DNA of 36,164 bases from an uncultured Bacteroidota bacterium (lineage in GTDB: Bacteria; Bacteroidota; Bacteroidia; UKL13-3). Location: NCBI GenBank assembly GCA_903834625.1, contig CAILJQ010000129.1, forward strand, positions 1 through 36,164. Direction: 5' to 3'. The translations under genes were made by a program, and so were the position numbers. The notes under the pieces are model-generated. The model had not been told where the DNA came from and did no database searches. It saw only the letters and a program-made list of their open reading frames with translations. Shown here piece after piece: positions 27,370-34,732 of the stretch. Position 1 is the stretch's first letter; the number at the start of each line of letters is the position of its first letter.

Positions 27370-29772
27370 ATGAAAATGTTTTTCAAAAAAGCCATGAAAA
27401 CTAAACTTCTTTACCTCCTTTTATGGGTTGTTTTGCTTGCATTTACTGAACAGTTGCAGGCTCAAAAAATAACCTTAAGTGGTTATGTAAAAGACAGTGC
27501 CACGGGCGAAACCTTAATTGGTGCAGTGGTTAAAAATCCTGAGGGTAACCTTGGTACTGTTACCAATACCTACGGTTTTTTCTCTATCTCATTTCCTGAA
27601 AATACTCCCTATTTTATCTGTTCTTATTTGGGATACAAAGCCCAGAAAATTACTTTAAATGGTAAAAGTAAAACCTACCAGATTAGCCTTATTAGGCAGA
27701 ACTTAGAAGAAAAAGAGGTGGTTATAAATGCAGAACGATTAGATAAAAATGTTCGCAGCACCGAAATGAGCAGAATTGAATTGAGTGGTGATAAAATCAA
27801 GTCATTACCCGTAGTTTTTGGCGAACCAGATGTATTAAAAGCTATAACATTATTACCCGGTATAAAAAGTGGAGGAGAAGCCAGCACCGGCTTTTACGTT
27901 AGAGGGGGAGGTCCCGATCAAAATTTAATTTTAATGGACGAGGCAGTGGTGTATAACCCCTCTCACCTGTTTGGTTTTTTGTCGGTCTTTAACTCAGACG
28001 CTGTAAAAAATATAGACATCATTAAAGGGGGAATGCCTGCAAATTATGGCGGGAGATTGTCTTCTATTTTAAATGTGAACATGCGTGATGGAAACAACCA
28101 AGAATTCAAATCGAATGGTGGAGTTGGATTAATTTCTACGCGCTTATCGGCTGAAGGGCCAATATCTAAAGGTAAAAGTAGCTTTTTAGTAGCTGCACGA
28201 AGAACCTATATTGACGTATTAGTAAAACCATTTTTACCTGCAGATATTAAAGGGAATAGTTACTATTTTTATGATATGAACCTAAAACTGAATTTCATTT
28301 TAGGTGAAAAAGACCGCTTATTTATTTCAGGTTACTTTGGAAGAGATATCTTAGATTATAAAAGTCAATTAAACAGGGCTGTTCAATTTAACTTTGGATG
28401 GGGTAATTCTACTGCTACTGCGAGATGGAATCATGTGTTCAATTCAAAGCTTTTTAGTAATACAAGCATCATTTTTAATAGATATGAATTGTTCAACGAT
28501 TTTCAATTTGGTGCAGGTGGGTTTATGGTAAGAAGTAGCTTGCGCGATTGGAATTTTAAGTCGGATTTTACGTGGTTTCCTAAAGATAACCATGAGGTAA
28601 AATTTGGTATAAACTACACTTATCATACCTTTCAACCAGGCATCCTTACAGGAAATATTGGTTCAATCCAAATAGGTGAAACCATTAACAAACAATACGC
28701 GCATGAATACGCCGCCTATTTATTGGACGATTTTAAATTGAATCACCGTTGGGCATTTAATTATGGGGTGAGATTGGTTGCTTTTCAATTGGTTGGGCCC
28801 TACACAAAGGAGGATTTTGATCTAGATACCCAACTGCCCAATGGCAATAAAACCAACTATAGTCCCGGTCAAACCATTGCCTATTATCCTCGGTTTGAAC
28901 CAAGGGCGAGCGCCAATTATTTGTTAAATGAAGAATCAAGTATCAAAGGAAGTTATACCCAAACTTATCAATTTCTTCATTTAGCCACTAGCTCGGGTGC
29001 ACAATTTCCTGTAGATTTATGGGTTCCAAGCAGTAGTTTAGTAAAGCCTCAAATGGCTAGGCAATTTGCCTTAGGATATTTTAGAAATTTTCAGAAGAAT
29101 GCCTACGAATCTTCTGCTGAAATCTATTACAAACCTATGAAGAATCAAATAGAGTTCAAACCAGGTGCCTCATTGTTCTTTAACCAAAACCTAGAAAGTG
29201 AAATGGTTTTTGGAGAAGGTTTGAGTTACGGATTGGAATTATTCTTAAGGAAAAAAACAGGCAAATTAAACGGCTGGATAGGGTATACCTGGAGTCGCAC
29301 GACAAGGCAATTTGACGCATTAAATAATGGCAAACCTTATTTTTATAGGTATGATAGAACCCACGATATTTCTTTGTTATTGAGCTATCAATTTAATAAG
29401 AAATGGGCAGGTAATTTTGTGTTTGTCTTTGGTACTGGAAATGCCACTACCTTGCCCGATTCACGTTATGCCTATCGTTTTGGGGTTGATCCAACCACAG
29501 GTGAACCAAAATTTGTGATAGTTGATAAATATGGTGCTGTGAACTCGTTCAGAATGCCTGCATACCATAGAGCAGATATTTCTTTTACCTATATGGTGAA
29601 ACAAACCAAGAAATTTGAAAGTAGCTGGAACTTCAGTATCTATAATATTTACAACAGGGCAAATCCTTATTTTATTTACTTTTTACCAGATACCGAAACG
29701 CAAACAGTGAAAGCCTTTATGGTTTATTTATTCCCTATTTTGCCTTCTGTACAATGGAATTTTAAATTTTAA
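27370..29772 (+). CDS. TonB-dependent outer-membrane receptor with CarboxypepD_reg-like domain
   Basis: An 800-residue outer-membrane transporter energised by TonB. After the signal peptide (ending EQLQA before QKIT), residues about 35-115 are a carboxypeptidase regulatory-like domain (LSGYVKDSATGETLIGAVV). The plug follows, about 125-240 (FGEPDVLKAITLLPGIKSG, FYVRGGGPDQNLILMDEAVV), then the beta-barrel to the C-terminal LPSVQWNFKF, with aromatic Phe at the end as expected. The second Met (27394, MKTKLLYLLLWVV) would give a tidier signal peptide. The DUF4249 lipoprotein gene starts four bases later, the standard pairing for this receptor group. The imported ligand is unknown. Confidence 0.94.
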   Translation: MKMFFKKAMKTKLLYLLLWVVLLAFTEQLQAQKITLSGYVKDSATGETLIGAVVKNPEGNLGTVTNTYGFFSISFPENTPYFICSYLGYKAQKITLNGKSKTYQISLIRQNLEEKEVVINAERLDKNVRSTEMSRIELSGDKIKSLPVVFGEPDVLKAITLLPGIKSGGEASTGFYVRGGGPDQNLILMDEAVVYNPSHLFGFLSVFNSDAVKNIDIIKGGMPANYGGRLSSILNVNMRDGNNQEFKSNGGVGLISTRLSAEGPISKGKSSFLVAARRTYIDVLVKPFLPADIKGNSYYFYDMNLKLNFILGEKDRLFISGYFGRDILDYKSQLNRAVQFNFGWGNSTATARWNHVFNSKLFSNTSIIFNRYELFNDFQFGAGGFMVRSSLRDWNFKSDFTWFPKDNHEVKFGINYTYHTFQPGILTGNIGSIQIGETINKQYAHEYAAYLLDDFKLNHRWAFNYGVRLVAFQLVGPYTKEDFDLDTQLPNGNKTNYSPGQTIAYYPRFEPRASANYLLNEESSIKGSYTQTYQFLHLATSSGAQFPVDLWVPSSSLVKPQMARQFALGYFRNFQKNAYESSAEIYYKPMKNQIEFKPGASLFFNQNLESEMVFGEGLSYGLELFLRKKTGKLNGWIGYTWSRTTRQFDALNNGKPYFYRYDRTHDISLLLSYQFNKKWAGNFVFVFGTGNATTLPDSRYAYRFGVDPTTGEPKFVIVDKYGAVNSFRMPAYHRADISFTYMVKQTKKFESSWNFSIYNIYNRANPYFIYFLPDTETQTVKAFMVYLFPILPSVQWNFKF

Positions 29773-29776
29773 GCGC

Positions 29777-30628
29777 ATGAAAACTACCAACCTCTTTTTC
29801 TTTTTTATGTGTGTAGGACTCGTGTTTTACTCTTGTGAAAAAGAAATACAAATAGATGTACCACCCGCAAAAGAAGAATTGGTTGTAGAAGCCTCTATTA
29901 ACCAATTAACACCCACATTAAACTACGTACTCATTTCAAAAACCCTCGATTATTTTAACCCAAGTTTGAGTGTGAACGCAGTTTCTGGGGCCGCCGTGTA
30001 CATTACAGAGGGCAATATAGTAGGGAATGATACTTTGTTCGATAGTGGAAACAGAACACAATTTTTTGATGTTCTGGATACGCTTATTCCTGGATTATAC
30101 ATCAATCCATTCTTTACAGGGAATATTGAAAAGCCTTATTTACTGGAAATAGAGCTTACAGATGGCCGAAAAATTACTGGCAAAACATTTATTCCTAAAC
30201 CAAGTACTTTTGATAGCATTCATTATTGGTTCGAGAAAAACAACCAAGATACCAATGCGTTTTTCTATCTGCAATGGATGGATGGTCCAGAGCAAAATAA
30301 TTACAGAATGGTGCTTAAGAAGGGTTTCTTGCCCTTTTTAACAGGCTGGGGATATGGTGACAGGTTTTATACTTTTGACGACAGTCAGATCAATAACAAG
30401 CCCAGGCCGTTTCTTATGTTGAACCCATTTAAATATGGTGATACCGTTAATATTTATCTTTCTCAAATAGGAAGATCTGAATATTTGTTTTGGGATTCAT
30501 TTAGGTCGGCTGCAAACAACGGCGGGCCATTTGCAACCCCGGTTAATGTCAAATCAAACGTAGAAGGTGCAATAGGGTCGTTTACAGGTTATGCCCTTAC
30601 TCAAACCCAATTGATTTTAAGAGAATAG
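29777..30628 (+). CDS. DUF4249 outer-membrane lipoprotein
   Basis: A 283-residue lipoprotein with lipobox FYSC (Cys20) after a Phe-rich signal sequence. EKEIQIDVPPAKEELVVEASI followed by GAAVYITEG is the characteristic N-terminal part of DUF4249. Such proteins are encoded directly after TonB receptors with a regulatory-like domain, as here with a four-base gap, and are thought to be surface partners of the receptor, by analogy with SusD; that role is inferred. Cys20 is followed by Glu-Lys-Glu, not a strong inner-membrane retention signal. The gene ends one base from the convergent DUF1801 gene. Confidence 0.9.
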   Translation: MKTTNLFFFFMCVGLVFYSCEKEIQIDVPPAKEELVVEASINQLTPTLNYVLISKTLDYFNPSLSVNAVSGAAVYITEGNIVGNDTLFDSGNRTQFFDVLDTLIPGLYINPFFTGNIEKPYLLEIELTDGRKITGKTFIPKPSTFDSIHYWFEKNNQDTNAFFYLQWMDGPEQNNYRMVLKKGFLPFLTGWGYGDRFYTFDDSQINNKPRPFLMLNPFKYGDTVNIYLSQIGRSEYLFWDSFRSAANNGGPFATPVNVKSNVEGAIGSFTGYALTQTQLILRE

Positions 30629-30629
30629 C

Positions 30630-31091
30630 CTATTTTTTTCTGGTATCTAAAATGGAAGTATAAATTTGAATCCATTCATCCACGCTCATTTTCGACATCA
30701 ATTCTTCTATCAATTCAAAAGGAATATCCTCTGGTTTTTTGAAGCGAATACAGCTTTTCCCCATGTCTAATTTTTTCTTTGAGTGCTTGGGAAACTCCGC
30801 AACAAACCAATCTAATAATTCAGGTTTGCTATATATGCCCATATGGTAAATGGCAATAAAATTCTTTTGTGATGCCAAACTAATAAAGGGGAGAGGCAAT
30901 TCAGGCGAACAATGATAACCATTAGGGTATTTTGAAAAAGGCACCACATATCCTATCATTCCATAACTCATTTGCTCCTCGGCACCTTTTATTTGTTTTT
31001 TACAAATAGCTCTAAGCCGCATCATGGCATCCTTTCTGTCTTCCGGGATCTCCTTCAGGTAGTCTTCAATTTGTTTTGCTGAACTTTGCAT
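30630..31091 (-). CDS. DUF1801 (YdhG-like) protein
   Basis: A 153-residue cytoplasmic protein of the DUF1801 family, whose members have a frataxin-like fold and are sometimes annotated as iron chaperones. Visible marks: VDxYL-like start AKQIEDYLKEIPEDRKDAMMRLRAICKKQ, the EEQMSYGMIGYVVPF core, NFIAIYHMGIY and the closing GKSCIRFKKPEDIPFELIEELM. No metal site is obvious. It lies between convergent DUF4249 and the split OmpA gene; its function is unknown. Stop codon TAG. Confidence 0.85.
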   Translation of the reverse strand: MQSSAKQIEDYLKEIPEDRKDAMMRLRAICKKQIKGAEEQMSYGMIGYVVPFSKYPNGYHCSPELPLPFISLASQKNFIAIYHMGIYSKPELLDWFVAEFPKHSKKKLDMGKSCIRFKKPEDIPFELIEELMSKMSVDEWIQIYTSILDTRKK

Positions 31092-31106: not shown

Positions 31107-31874
31107 TTAAAAGAAAATAGATAATTCAATTCGTCTGTTTTTTATTCTACCTTCTTTGGTAGCATTGTCGGCTATGGGCTTAGTATCACCATACCCCGAA
31201 AAATAAAGCCTAGCACTGTCAATTCCTTTAGATAACAAATACATCTGAACAGCTCTTGCTCTATTTTCAGATAACTCCAGGTTGGTGGCGGGATCACCCA
31301 CATTGTCGGTATGTCCGCCAATGAGTAATCTATAGTCTGTATTTAGCTCTAATAAGGTAGCAACTTGATTTAAGGCTTCAAGACTTTGCTTTTGTAGAAC
31401 CGCCTTGCCTGGCTCAAATTGTATACCCAAGGAAGCTTTTTGCAAAGTCTTTTTTAGGTCGGCTTTTATTTCTGGACAGCCTTCAAGACTTTCTATTCCA
31501 GCCACCTTTGGACATTTGTCTATGTTTTCTAAAATCCCATCACCATCAACATCGGGGCAACCATGTAATGCAGTAAAACCTTTCAGATCTGGACAATAAT
31601 CCTCAGAATCCATAACGCCATCAGCATCCTTGTCTGGACATCCCTTTAAACTAATTGCTCCGGAAGTTTCAGGGCATTTATCTAGATAATCGGGTATTCC
31701 ATCTCCATCTTTATCAGGACAACCGTCTAAGGAAGATGCACCAATAATGAGGGGACATTTATCTTTTTCATCTGGCACTCCATCCAAATCAGTATCTAAA
31801 GGAGTAGTTTGAACGACAACTTTTTGATTTTGTTCTACATGAGTAGAAGGGACAGTTTCTTTTTTTCTTTTTAT
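31107..31874 (-). CDS. Downstream half of a split OmpA-family protein: TSP3 repeats and OmpA domain
   Basis: This frame is open from just after a TGA (31875-31877) to TAA at 31107, 255 codons. It begins IKRKKETVPSTHVEQ, continues through thrombospondin type 3-like calcium repeats (DTDLDGVPDEKDKCP, GCPDKDGDGIPD, GCPDKDADGVMD, GCPDVDGDGI) and ends with a peptidoglycan-binding OmpA domain (about the last 115 residues: LLIGGHTDNVGDPATNLELSENRA, FSGYGDTKPIADN, NRRIELSIFF). It has no ATG and no signal peptide of its own; the only usual start is TTG at 31787, inside the first repeat. In frame with the upstream barrel half, it must have formed one protein. Either the TGA is read through, or it is a nonsense mutation or sequencing error. 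Confidence 0.85.
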   Translation of the reverse strand: MKRKKETVPSTHVEQNQKVVVQTTPLDTDLDGVPDEKDKCPLIIGASSLDGCPDKDGDGIPDYLDKCPETSGAISLKGCPDKDADGVMDSEDYCPDLKGFTALHGCPDVDGDGILENIDKCPKVAGIESLEGCPEIKADLKKTLQKASLGIQFEPGKAVLQKQSLEALNQVATLLELNTDYRLLIGGHTDNVGDPATNLELSENRARAVQMYLLSKGIDSARLYFSGYGDTKPIADNATKEGRIKNRRIELSIFF

Positions 31875-32555
31875 TCAGAACGCTGGAGTGCCAGTAACTT
31901 TCGAGGGCTTACCAAACAAATAGCTAACCCCTATAGAATGGTTCCAAAATTGGTCAAAAGAAAACTTGGTATAAGCTGGATTTCCTTCAACAATGTCTCC
32001 GTTGGTCCAAGCGTAGTGACTTTGAATGTTCAATAGAATGCGCTCCTCACAACGAATATTAAGGCCCAAGCCAACTGGTATAACTGCATTCATCACTGAA
32101 CTCTTTCCATAAGCATTTCCATCTTTAAGATTAACTCTTCTCATTCCAAGTCCACCAAGCAGATAGGGAGAAAATTTTGCATTATCATTACCCATGAATT
32201 TCCAACGGGCTGTTGCATCTAAGTAAATGAATTTTGAATAGAAATAGCTATTTACATTATTGTAGATTCCATGCTCACCAAACGAAGCCGAAAGGGTAAA
32301 GTCAACTTTGTTGGTATAGTATTTAGACGCGCTGATACCTAAATAAACGGGCTTGCTATTGGTTAAAGTTAATTTGTTGTCGGCATAAATACGTTTTGGA
32401 AGTAAATCAAATTTCAAAAAACCATTTCCTAAATCTCCTGAATATTCTGAAATTCCTGCATTTACACCAATTGCCCAATTAAAGTTACGGTTTTGAGCCG
32501 ACGATACATTTACCACATAAACCAGCAAAGCCAAGCTGAGTATTAATTTTCTCAT
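31875..32555 (-). CDS. Upstream half of a split OmpA-family protein: signal peptide and outer-membrane barrel
   Basis: The 226-residue product has a signal peptide (1-20, ending VVNVSSA before QNR) and an eight-strand-like outer-membrane barrel: FNWAIGVNAGISEYSGDL, PVYLGISASKYYTNKVDFTLSASFG, FIYLDATARWKF, YLLGGLGMRRVNLKD and the closing HSIGVSYLFGKPS. It ends VTGTPAF followed by TGA. The same frame continues without another stop into TSP3 repeats and an OmpA domain, an architecture normally made as a single protein of about 480 residues in Bacteroidota. TGA is used by no other gene in this window. As it stands the barrel would lack its peptidoglycan anchor. Confidence 0.85.
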   Translation of the reverse strand: MRKLILSLALLVYVVNVSSAQNRNFNWAIGVNAGISEYSGDLGNGFLKFDLLPKRIYADNKLTLTNSKPVYLGISASKYYTNKVDFTLSASFGEHGIYNNVNSYFYSKFIYLDATARWKFMGNDNAKFSPYLLGGLGMRRVNLKDGNAYGKSSVMNAVIPVGLGLNIRCEERILLNIQSHYAWTNGDIVEGNPAYTKFSFDQFWNHSIGVSYLFGKPSKVTGTPAF

Positions 32556-32696: not shown

Positions 32697-33458
32697 TTGA
32701 TAAAGGTTTTTATAGTTGGTTCAGGCCGATTGGCGCATAATTTGGTTAATACCTTTACCCAAAATGGAGTAGAGGTGACTGGACTTTATGCCAGAAATTT
32801 GAACAAAGGAAAACTGTTATCACAAAAATACGATGTTTCATTTTTTGCTGATTTGACGAGTATTCCAGTTAATTGCGACGTATACTTTTTGGCTGTTTCA
32901 GACAATGCAATTGAAGGTGTTTCAAATCTAATTAAAGTGAACGGCCTTGTAGTTCATTGCTCTGGAATGATGGACACAAAATTGTTACATGCGCATGCCA
33001 ACTGTGGTGTGTTTTGGCCTGTGCAATCATTGAATGAGGAGAAATTGTCAGACTTCAAACATGTTCCCATTTGCATTGAATCTTCAGATGATAATAACAA
33101 AAGAATATTAGAAGTTTTGTCTGATAAAGTTAGTAGTACAACATTGTTCGTATCTCAAGAACAAAGGAATAAACTTCATTTAACTGCTGTTATGGTTAAT
33201 AATTTTTCAAATCATTTGTTTCACTTAGCAAACGATTTCTTAGAGAAAAATAAACTTCCATTTTCAGTGTTATTTCCGCTTATTGAGGAAACATTTGAAA
33301 AGGTAAAATACCTACATCCTAAAGAAGCGCAAACGGGTCCGGCGGCAAGAAAAGATCATAATACCATTGAAAAGCAAATGGCATTATTAGCAGATGACCC
33401 CAAATTACAATTAATTTACAAAGTATTTACAGATAGTATTTTACAGAATAAATATTAA
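32697..33458 (+). CDS. Rossmann-fold/DUF2520 dehydrogenase-like protein
   Basis: A 253-residue protein with an N-terminal NAD(P)-binding fold (MIKVFIVGSGRLAHNLVNTF, with GxGxxA-like GSGRLA) and a C-terminal helical DUF2520 domain (about 125-250: CGVFWPVQSLNEE, RNKLHLTAVMVNNFSNHLF, GPAARKDHNTIEKQMALL). The build resembles pyrroline-5-carboxylate reductase and 6-phosphogluconate dehydrogenase relatives; the substrate of this family is not established. The start is TTG at 32697: no ATG is available and a TGA lies in frame eight codons upstream. It is followed after eight bases by the secreted gene at 33467. Confidence 0.88.
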   Translation: MIKVFIVGSGRLAHNLVNTFTQNGVEVTGLYARNLNKGKLLSQKYDVSFFADLTSIPVNCDVYFLAVSDNAIEGVSNLIKVNGLVVHCSGMMDTKLLHAHANCGVFWPVQSLNEEKLSDFKHVPICIESSDDNNKRILEVLSDKVSSTTLFVSQEQRNKLHLTAVMVNNFSNHLFHLANDFLEKNKLPFSVLFPLIEETFEKVKYLHPKEAQTGPAARKDHNTIEKQMALLADDPKLQLIYKVFTDSILQNKY

Positions 33459-33466
33459 ATCATTAC

Positions 33467-34732
33467 ATGAAATTGAATCGTATCATATTATTTGCGTTGT
33501 TTTGGATTTCTACCTCACAGAGTTTTGCAACTAGGCTGCTTATTCCCATGGATGATGAACAAAAAAATCATCTGAAAGCCTATGGTATTTCTTATTGGGT
33601 TTTAAAACAAGACTTAGAAGTAAATTGGCTTCTTAACTATAAAGGTGGAAGCTTCATGATGATGTATCAGGAATCCATAGAAAAGGAACTGCGCATAAGA
33701 GGTGTGAGTTATGATGTATTGAGTGAGGGTCAGGTTACTTCAATCTTAACGGAAATATCCAGACCAGAGGTAAACATGGAAATGGTTAGGTTGCTAAAGG
33801 CCCCCAAAATTGCCGTGTATTCTCCTAAAACCAAGCAACCATGGGATGATGCCGTAACGCTTGTATTAACCTACGCTGAAATACCTTACGATGTTATTTA
33901 TGATGACGAAGTACTGGATGGGAAGTTGCACTTATATGATTGGTTGCATGTGCATCATGAGGATTTTACTGGTCAATATGGAAAGTTTTATTCAACCTTT
34001 GGTCACACAGCTTGGTACCAAGCAGATCAGAGAGAGAATGAGGCAATGGCCGCAAAACATGGTTATTCCAAGGTTTCACAACTCAAATTAGATGTTGCAA
34101 AAAAAATACGGGATTTTGTTTTAGGAGGCGGATTCATGTTTGCTATGTGCAGTGCAACAGATACATGGGATATTGCACTTGCTGCAGATGGTTTAGATAT
34201 TTGTGAGCAAGTATTTGATGGGGATGGGGCAGATTGGGGAGCTGATAAGAAGCTAGACTTTAGTAGAGGCTTTGCGTTCAAAGATTACAAATTGTATTAC
34301 GATCCCATGATTTATGAGCATAGTTATATTGATGCTATGCAAGGTACCCGACCCATTTCAGAAGATAATGATGTTTTTTCATTGTTTGAATTTAGTGCCA
34401 AGTGGGATATGGTGCCAGCCATGCTGAACCAAAATCATACGTCAACTGTAAAAGGTTTTTGGGGGCAGACAACCGCATTTAGAAAGCCTTATTTAAAAAG
34501 TGAGGTAACCATATTAGGAGAGAATAAGAGTTTAAATGAGGCAAGATATATCCATGGAACATCTGGAAAGGGAACTTGGACGTTTTATAGTGGTCATGAT
34601 CCTGAAGATTACCAACATCAGGTAGGAGAGCCACCAACAGATCTTGCCTTACATCCTAATTCTCCTGGGTATCGCTTAATTCTTAATAACGTACTTTTTC
34701 CTTCAGCCCAAAAGAAAAAGCAGAAAACATAG
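33467..34732 (+). CDS. Exported conserved protein with a GATase1-like Cys motif (often mislabelled asparagine synthetase B)
   Basis: A 421-residue protein with a signal peptide (about 1-21, ending SQSFA before TRLL). The mature start LLIPMDDEQKNHLKAYGISYWVL is one I recall from Bacteroidota proteins named asparagine synthetase B, yet nothing here resembles the AsnB glutaminase (no N-terminal Cys2) or synthetase domain. KIAVYSPKTKQPWDDAV..AEIPYDVIYDDEVL and GGGFMFAMCSATDTWDIAL look like the core and nucleophile elbow of class I glutamine amidotransferase/ThuA-like folds, with C228 in the elbow. HVHHEDFTGQYGKF is another conserved-looking block. A secreted hydrolase or a binding protein are both possible. 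Stop codon TAG. Confidence 0.75.
   Translation: MKLNRIILFALFWISTSQSFATRLLIPMDDEQKNHLKAYGISYWVLKQDLEVNWLLNYKGGSFMMMYQESIEKELRIRGVSYDVLSEGQVTSILTEISRPEVNMEMVRLLKAPKIAVYSPKTKQPWDDAVTLVLTYAEIPYDVIYDDEVLDGKLHLYDWLHVHHEDFTGQYGKFYSTFGHTAWYQADQRENEAMAAKHGYSKVSQLKLDVAKKIRDFVLGGGFMFAMCSATDTWDIALAADGLDICEQVFDGDGADWGADKKLDFSRGFAFKDYKLYYDPMIYEHSYIDAMQGTRPISEDNDVFSLFEFSAKWDMVPAMLNQNHTSTVKGFWGQTTAFRKPYLKSEVTILGENKSLNEARYIHGTSGKGTWTFYSGHDPEDYQHQVGEPPTDLALHPNSPGYRLILNNVLFPSAQKKKQKT

Follow-up and report, generated by a model that had tools for sequence, protein, structure and literature searches.

The closest described counterparts of the gene analysed here are OmpA-type outer-membrane proteins. In OmpA of the Bacteroidota member Capnocytophaga gingivalis (PDB 5wtl/5wtp), TSP3 repeats are followed by an OmpA domain, and the same order occurs in the 36,164-nt stretch of DNA analysed here (hereafter the window), with 48% identity across 231 alignment columns. 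However, in the window a stop codon parts the TSP3/OmpA portion from the barrel. The OmpA of E. coli (1bxw for the transmembrane domain, 9a2m for a model) likewise combines an eight-stranded barrel with a periplasmic anchor (PMC7553776), but it lacks a TSP3 spacer, is uninterrupted and shares about 20% identity with the window's gene. In NspA (1p4t), as in five barrel-only orthologues of the window's gene (G008, G011, G010, G012 and G016, described below), the barrel ends soon past its last strand. Unlike these, the window's barrel carries a 12-residue tail after the last strand and anchor sequence still lies downstream. The locus also resembles in-frame stops reported in conserved bacterial genes (PMC7918605; PMC11017572), where a single stop is followed by an open, conserved frame. 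In the cases of PMC7918605, sharing between species was required before readthrough was argued, whereas such sharing was not seen for the window's TGA.

The split gene occupies the minus strand of the window, running from 32555 to 31107 (Table 1). Its translation begins MRKLILSLALL and continues to VSYLFGKPSKVTGTPAF, followed by the TGA, then IKRKKETVPSTHVEQNQ, the TSP3 repeats, the OmpA domain and a TAA. The original prediction, which left the strand unstated, placed an in-frame TGA at 31875-31877 with an open continuation into TSP3 repeats and an OmpA domain; the sequence confirmed this, and the codons it quoted downstream of the TGA matched exactly. Its figure of 256 codons for 31107-31874 holds if the stop is counted, as the frame after the TGA comprises 255 sense codons plus TAA. 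It had also described the second half as lacking both an ATG and a signal peptide. The latter was correct and the former nearly so: the first in-frame ATG past the TGA lies 87 codons in, within the TSP3 repeats, and is not preceded by a signal peptide. Chance as the source of the 255-codon open frame was excluded, because, among the 19 other TGA-ended ORFs that reach 100 aa in 308 kb of the same genome, 17 had in-frame extensions of just 0-32 codons and because the anchor half carries PF00691 and PF02412. The two longer extensions were considered as further split genes and rejected, one being an adjacent, different gene (L215) and the other a low-complexity antisense ORF (L223).

Table 1 Features of the split gene and its conserved neighbours in the window.
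Feature	Position	Strand	Basis or remark
TonB receptor	27370-29772		
DUF4249 gene	29777-30628		
Downstream DUF1801 gene	30630..31091	minus	Adjoins the locus in G013, G002, G010, G012 and G016; not found beside the G008 locus
Anchor half, continuing the barrel's frame through a lineage-specific linker, four TSP3 repeats and an OmpA-like peptidoglycan-binding domain to TAA	31107..31874	minus	
TAA stop of the anchor half	31109-31107	minus	
In-frame TGA, in the linker (pLDDT < 50) between barrel and TSP3 repeats	31875..31877	minus	Sequence and AlphaFold2
Barrel half, 226-aa ORF: N-terminal signal-like segment and predicted complete eight-stranded beta-barrel	31878..32555	minus	ORF; AlphaFold2; syntenic orthologues in 8 genomes
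Start codon ATG	32555-32553	minus	Sequence reading
DUF2520/Rossmann gene, divergent	32697..33458	plus	Conserved upstream neighbour used for synteny
Conserved flanking gene	33467-34732		

The two halves were recognisable to differing degrees. The anchor half matched PF00691 (OmpA) at 83.7 bits (cut-off 27.2), identifying a C-terminal peptidoglycan-binding domain, and PF02412 (TSP_3) at 52.7 bits, and Foldseek returned C. gingivalis OmpA (5wtl, 48% identity) as the solved structure nearest to the periplasmic part. The barrel half had no Pfam match, and NCBIfam gave a weak PorG match alone, far under the cut-off. Its fold was apparent when the read-through protein was modelled with AlphaFold2 from an alignment of 10 (mean pLDDT 70.7, pTM 0.39, at which the relative orientation of the barrel, TSP3 and OmpA parts is not interpretable). 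Eight long strands (26-38 ... 201-214) were predicted, and the barrel's Foldseek matches were E. coli OmpA (1bxw) and NspA (1p4t), in keeping with the eight-stranded N-terminal barrel of OmpA-type anchored proteins. The last strand ended at residue 214, ahead of the stop at 227, which lay within a low-confidence stretch (residues 217-250); the TSP3 and OmpA parts beyond were confidently predicted. On this model, truncation at the TGA would leave the barrel complete. The linker in the window's anchor half stands where relatives have their first TSP3 repeat.

Read-through searches located the syntenic locus in seven genomes of the same genus as the window's genome, G000 (G013, G002, G008, G011, G010, G012 and G016), and in one from another genus of the family (G022). 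Conserved flanking genes included the TonB receptor, DUF4249, DUF1801 and DUF2520 genes and the gene at 33467-34732, with some local losses; synteny was judged as far as contigs reach in the seven same-genus genomes and was partial in G022. Three states of the locus were observed. In G013 (509 aa), G002 (509 aa) and G022 (520 aa) there was one open fused gene, its barrel and OmpA domain in a single uninterrupted frame, which in the window is broken by the TGA (31877-31875). This agreed with the earlier statement that barrel, TSP3 repeats and OmpA domain are normally one protein. G008, G011, G010, G012 and G016 encoded barrel-only proteins of 216-217 aa ending 2-3 residues past the last strand, and tblastn, even at relaxed settings, gave no convincing trace of an anchor downstream of these genes; at these loci (L163 and L164 in G008 and G011; L165-L167 in G012, G010 and G016) the OmpA anchor half was completely gone. 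The window's genome represents the third state, with both halves kept and the TGA between them. The comparison with relatives proposed in the original prediction gave an open frame in three genomes and no anchor in the other five. A stop at the equivalent place with an anchor half beyond it occurred in none of the eight syntenic relatives.

The sequences indicate that the fused state is ancestral, since the outgroup G022 and two members of the genus share it. In the barrel tree, the five barrel-only species grouped together (92/91) with the window's gene outside, and in the flanking-gene tree G000 clustered (92/97) with G002, which is fused, and with the barrel-only pair G010/G012, whereas the barrel-only pair G008/G011 fell in another part of the tree, which implies separate losses. 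As the former tree unites the five species and the latter splits G008/G011 from G010/G012, one or two earlier anchor losses are suggested. The window's own loss is best read as a separate event, given its position outside the barrel-only group and, by flanking genes, beside G002 and G010/G012; the anchor was lost more than once. Barrel-only orthologues in five relatives also point to anchor loss being a recurrent and tolerated event at this locus.

These comparisons bear on whether the halves are two real genes, the anchor half being translated separately through reinitiation. It does lie directly downstream of the barrel and in frame. However, because no ATG occurs before codon 87 and a signal peptide is absent, a separately translated anchor half would stay cytoplasmic. 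The original prediction had regarded separate full-length homologues of each half in relatives as evidence for two genes; barrel-only genes were present in five relatives but a separate anchor-half gene was found at the locus in none. We consider this arrangement highly improbable.

Despite lying behind a stop, the anchor half does not look like a pseudogene. Against a profile of other family members it scored 168.5 bits (relatives, 199-205), whereas neutral stop-free simulants at equal identity reached 75 ± 10 bits (maximum about 102), which argues that its evolution is not neutral and that it still looks selected. Second codon positions were conserved relative to third positions (0.26-0.29 vs 0.57-0.61). 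We also estimated how long the frame would survive without selection (765 bases, 4% of changes giving stops): the chance of staying open falls to 5% once neutral changes reach 0.098 per site if indels are ignored, or 0.028-0.044 per site if indels arise at 5-10% of the substitution rate. Since the anchor half has not decayed and scores well above neutral, the TGA is young, an error, or read through.

Sequence divergence was nevertheless raised in the OmpA domain. Identity between the window and G013, G002 and G022 was ~50%, compared to 67-88% among those three; for the barrel, the corresponding contrast was small. In a Tajima-type relative-rate test with G022 as the reference outgroup, unique changes in the OmpA domain numbered 32 vs 8 (P = 0.00015) and 29 vs 8 (P = 0.0006) for the window versus relatives, whilst those in the barrel numbered 32 vs 20 (P = 0.10) and 28 vs 21 (P = 0.32). 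This suggests that the anchor half has evolved faster in the window's lineage than in the fused relatives, which is less clear against the barrel directly, where the contrast in rate was borderline (Fisher test, P about 0.07). The OmpA domain within 31107-31874 thus combines a rate several times that of the fused relatives with a retained family profile.

The original prediction had offered TGA recoding or readthrough, yielding a peptidoglycan-anchored and an anchor-free form of an outer-membrane protein, as one option. TGA is an ordinary stop in the window's genome: in the 308 kb sampled, the 200 ORFs that reached 150 aa ended in TAA (156), TAG (26) or TGA (18), and the RF2 gene prfB was present (471.7 bits, over the cut-off). 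The 28 tRNA genes found included tRNA-Trp(CCA), and none (0/28) had a UCA anticodon of the UGA-reading, suppressor or Sec type, although some tRNA genes may be missing from the list for this draft. A change of genetic code was rejected on these three counts. Programmed or leaky readthrough would agree with the open and conserved frame past the TGA, and UGA is leaky; in bacteria, in-frame stops can coexist with purifying selection (PMC7918605). On the other side, RF2 was not lost and a UGA-reading tRNA was not found; the TGA was not common to related species with selection acting beyond it, the relatives being open or having the anchor deleted; the RNA 3' of the TGA had no unusual structure (z -1.5); and the fast evolution of the OmpA domain speaks against a newly refined two-form device. 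Readthrough to two protein forms therefore found no positive support and is very unlikely. There is an equally slim prospect, if not a slimmer one, that leaky UGA readthrough supplies a small anchored fraction beside a majority of free barrel, as an intermediate toward the anchor-less barrels of the sister species.

A consensus or assembly error is a more serious contender. The living organism would then have a sense codon at this site and make the full anchored protein, in line with an intact anchor half whose motifs are conserved. Errors in assembly have been documented as a major source of false internal stops (PMC11017572), and this assembly is a draft (309 contigs, 97% complete). We drew a background of split genes from sampled contigs (657 kb of the window's genome and 400 kb of G013). 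At least two lone in-frame lesions occurred in the 657 kb, and no clear lone-stop case was found in the 400 kb of G013. The second lesion, on contig C30 (L220:8998-12486), is an in-frame TAA that follows residue 237 and precedes 925 open codons; it was present in no relative, the same-genus orthologues being open there. The product of that gene is a secreted multi-domain surface protein whose C-terminal tail resembles a sorting domain for type IX secretion. Consensus errors and recent real nonsense mutations would each account for two lone lesions followed by intact frames, and a single lesion of this kind also looks like a real mutation. Moreover, five sister species normally carry barrel-only versions of the same gene and the OmpA domain was already sped up in this lineage, which makes a genuine loss plausible. 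We regard an error as a substantial possibility, though short of even odds.

The most likely explanation, with a probability of roughly 55%, is ordinary truncation, in which a recent nonsense mutation left a complete eight-stranded barrel without its anchor. Among the options first put forward (nonsense mutation, sequencing error, recoding), this one fits best. Orthologues were intact, the lesion was single and the downstream frame was undecayed, as for a recent nonsense (unitary) lesion. An ancestral single gene would have encoded an eight-stranded outer-membrane barrel, a TSP3 spacer and a peptidoglycan-binding OmpA domain, and one in-frame nonsense codon would recently have arisen in the linker. 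Translation would halt at the TGA, yielding a secreted, complete 226-aa barrel without a peptidoglycan anchor, and the anchor half would no longer be produced in the periplasm. We infer that the stop is real and of recent date, and that the barrel folds and functions by itself. Loss of the anchor is probably tolerated, as the window's genome has six other OmpA-domain matches and the anchor half had been changing rapidly in this lineage beforehand.

By itself, a lone in-frame stop is ordinary for a draft genome. The comparative interest lies in one conserved locus in one genus at which the OmpA-type peptidoglycan anchor is present, absent, or cut off by a single stop. This variation across species suggests that the barrel has an anchor-independent function, and the loss of outer-membrane tethering could be studied at this locus.

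Other origins of the interruption were also considered. A small mobile insert bearing the stop was rejected: the 33 nt through the TGA occurred once in the genome (3 mismatches allowed) and a 23-mer from it was absent from viral contigs, in which no close copies were found. An exchange of the anchor half for sequence from another paralogue was not demonstrated; in trees the anchor half joined G013/G002 through a long branch (59/95 support), and the wider grouping was not rejected (p-AU 0.24). The window's genome additionally contained a barrel-only paralogue at a contig end (L168, G000:C267:6122-6739; 35-36% identity), with relatives in G010, G012, G016 and G002.
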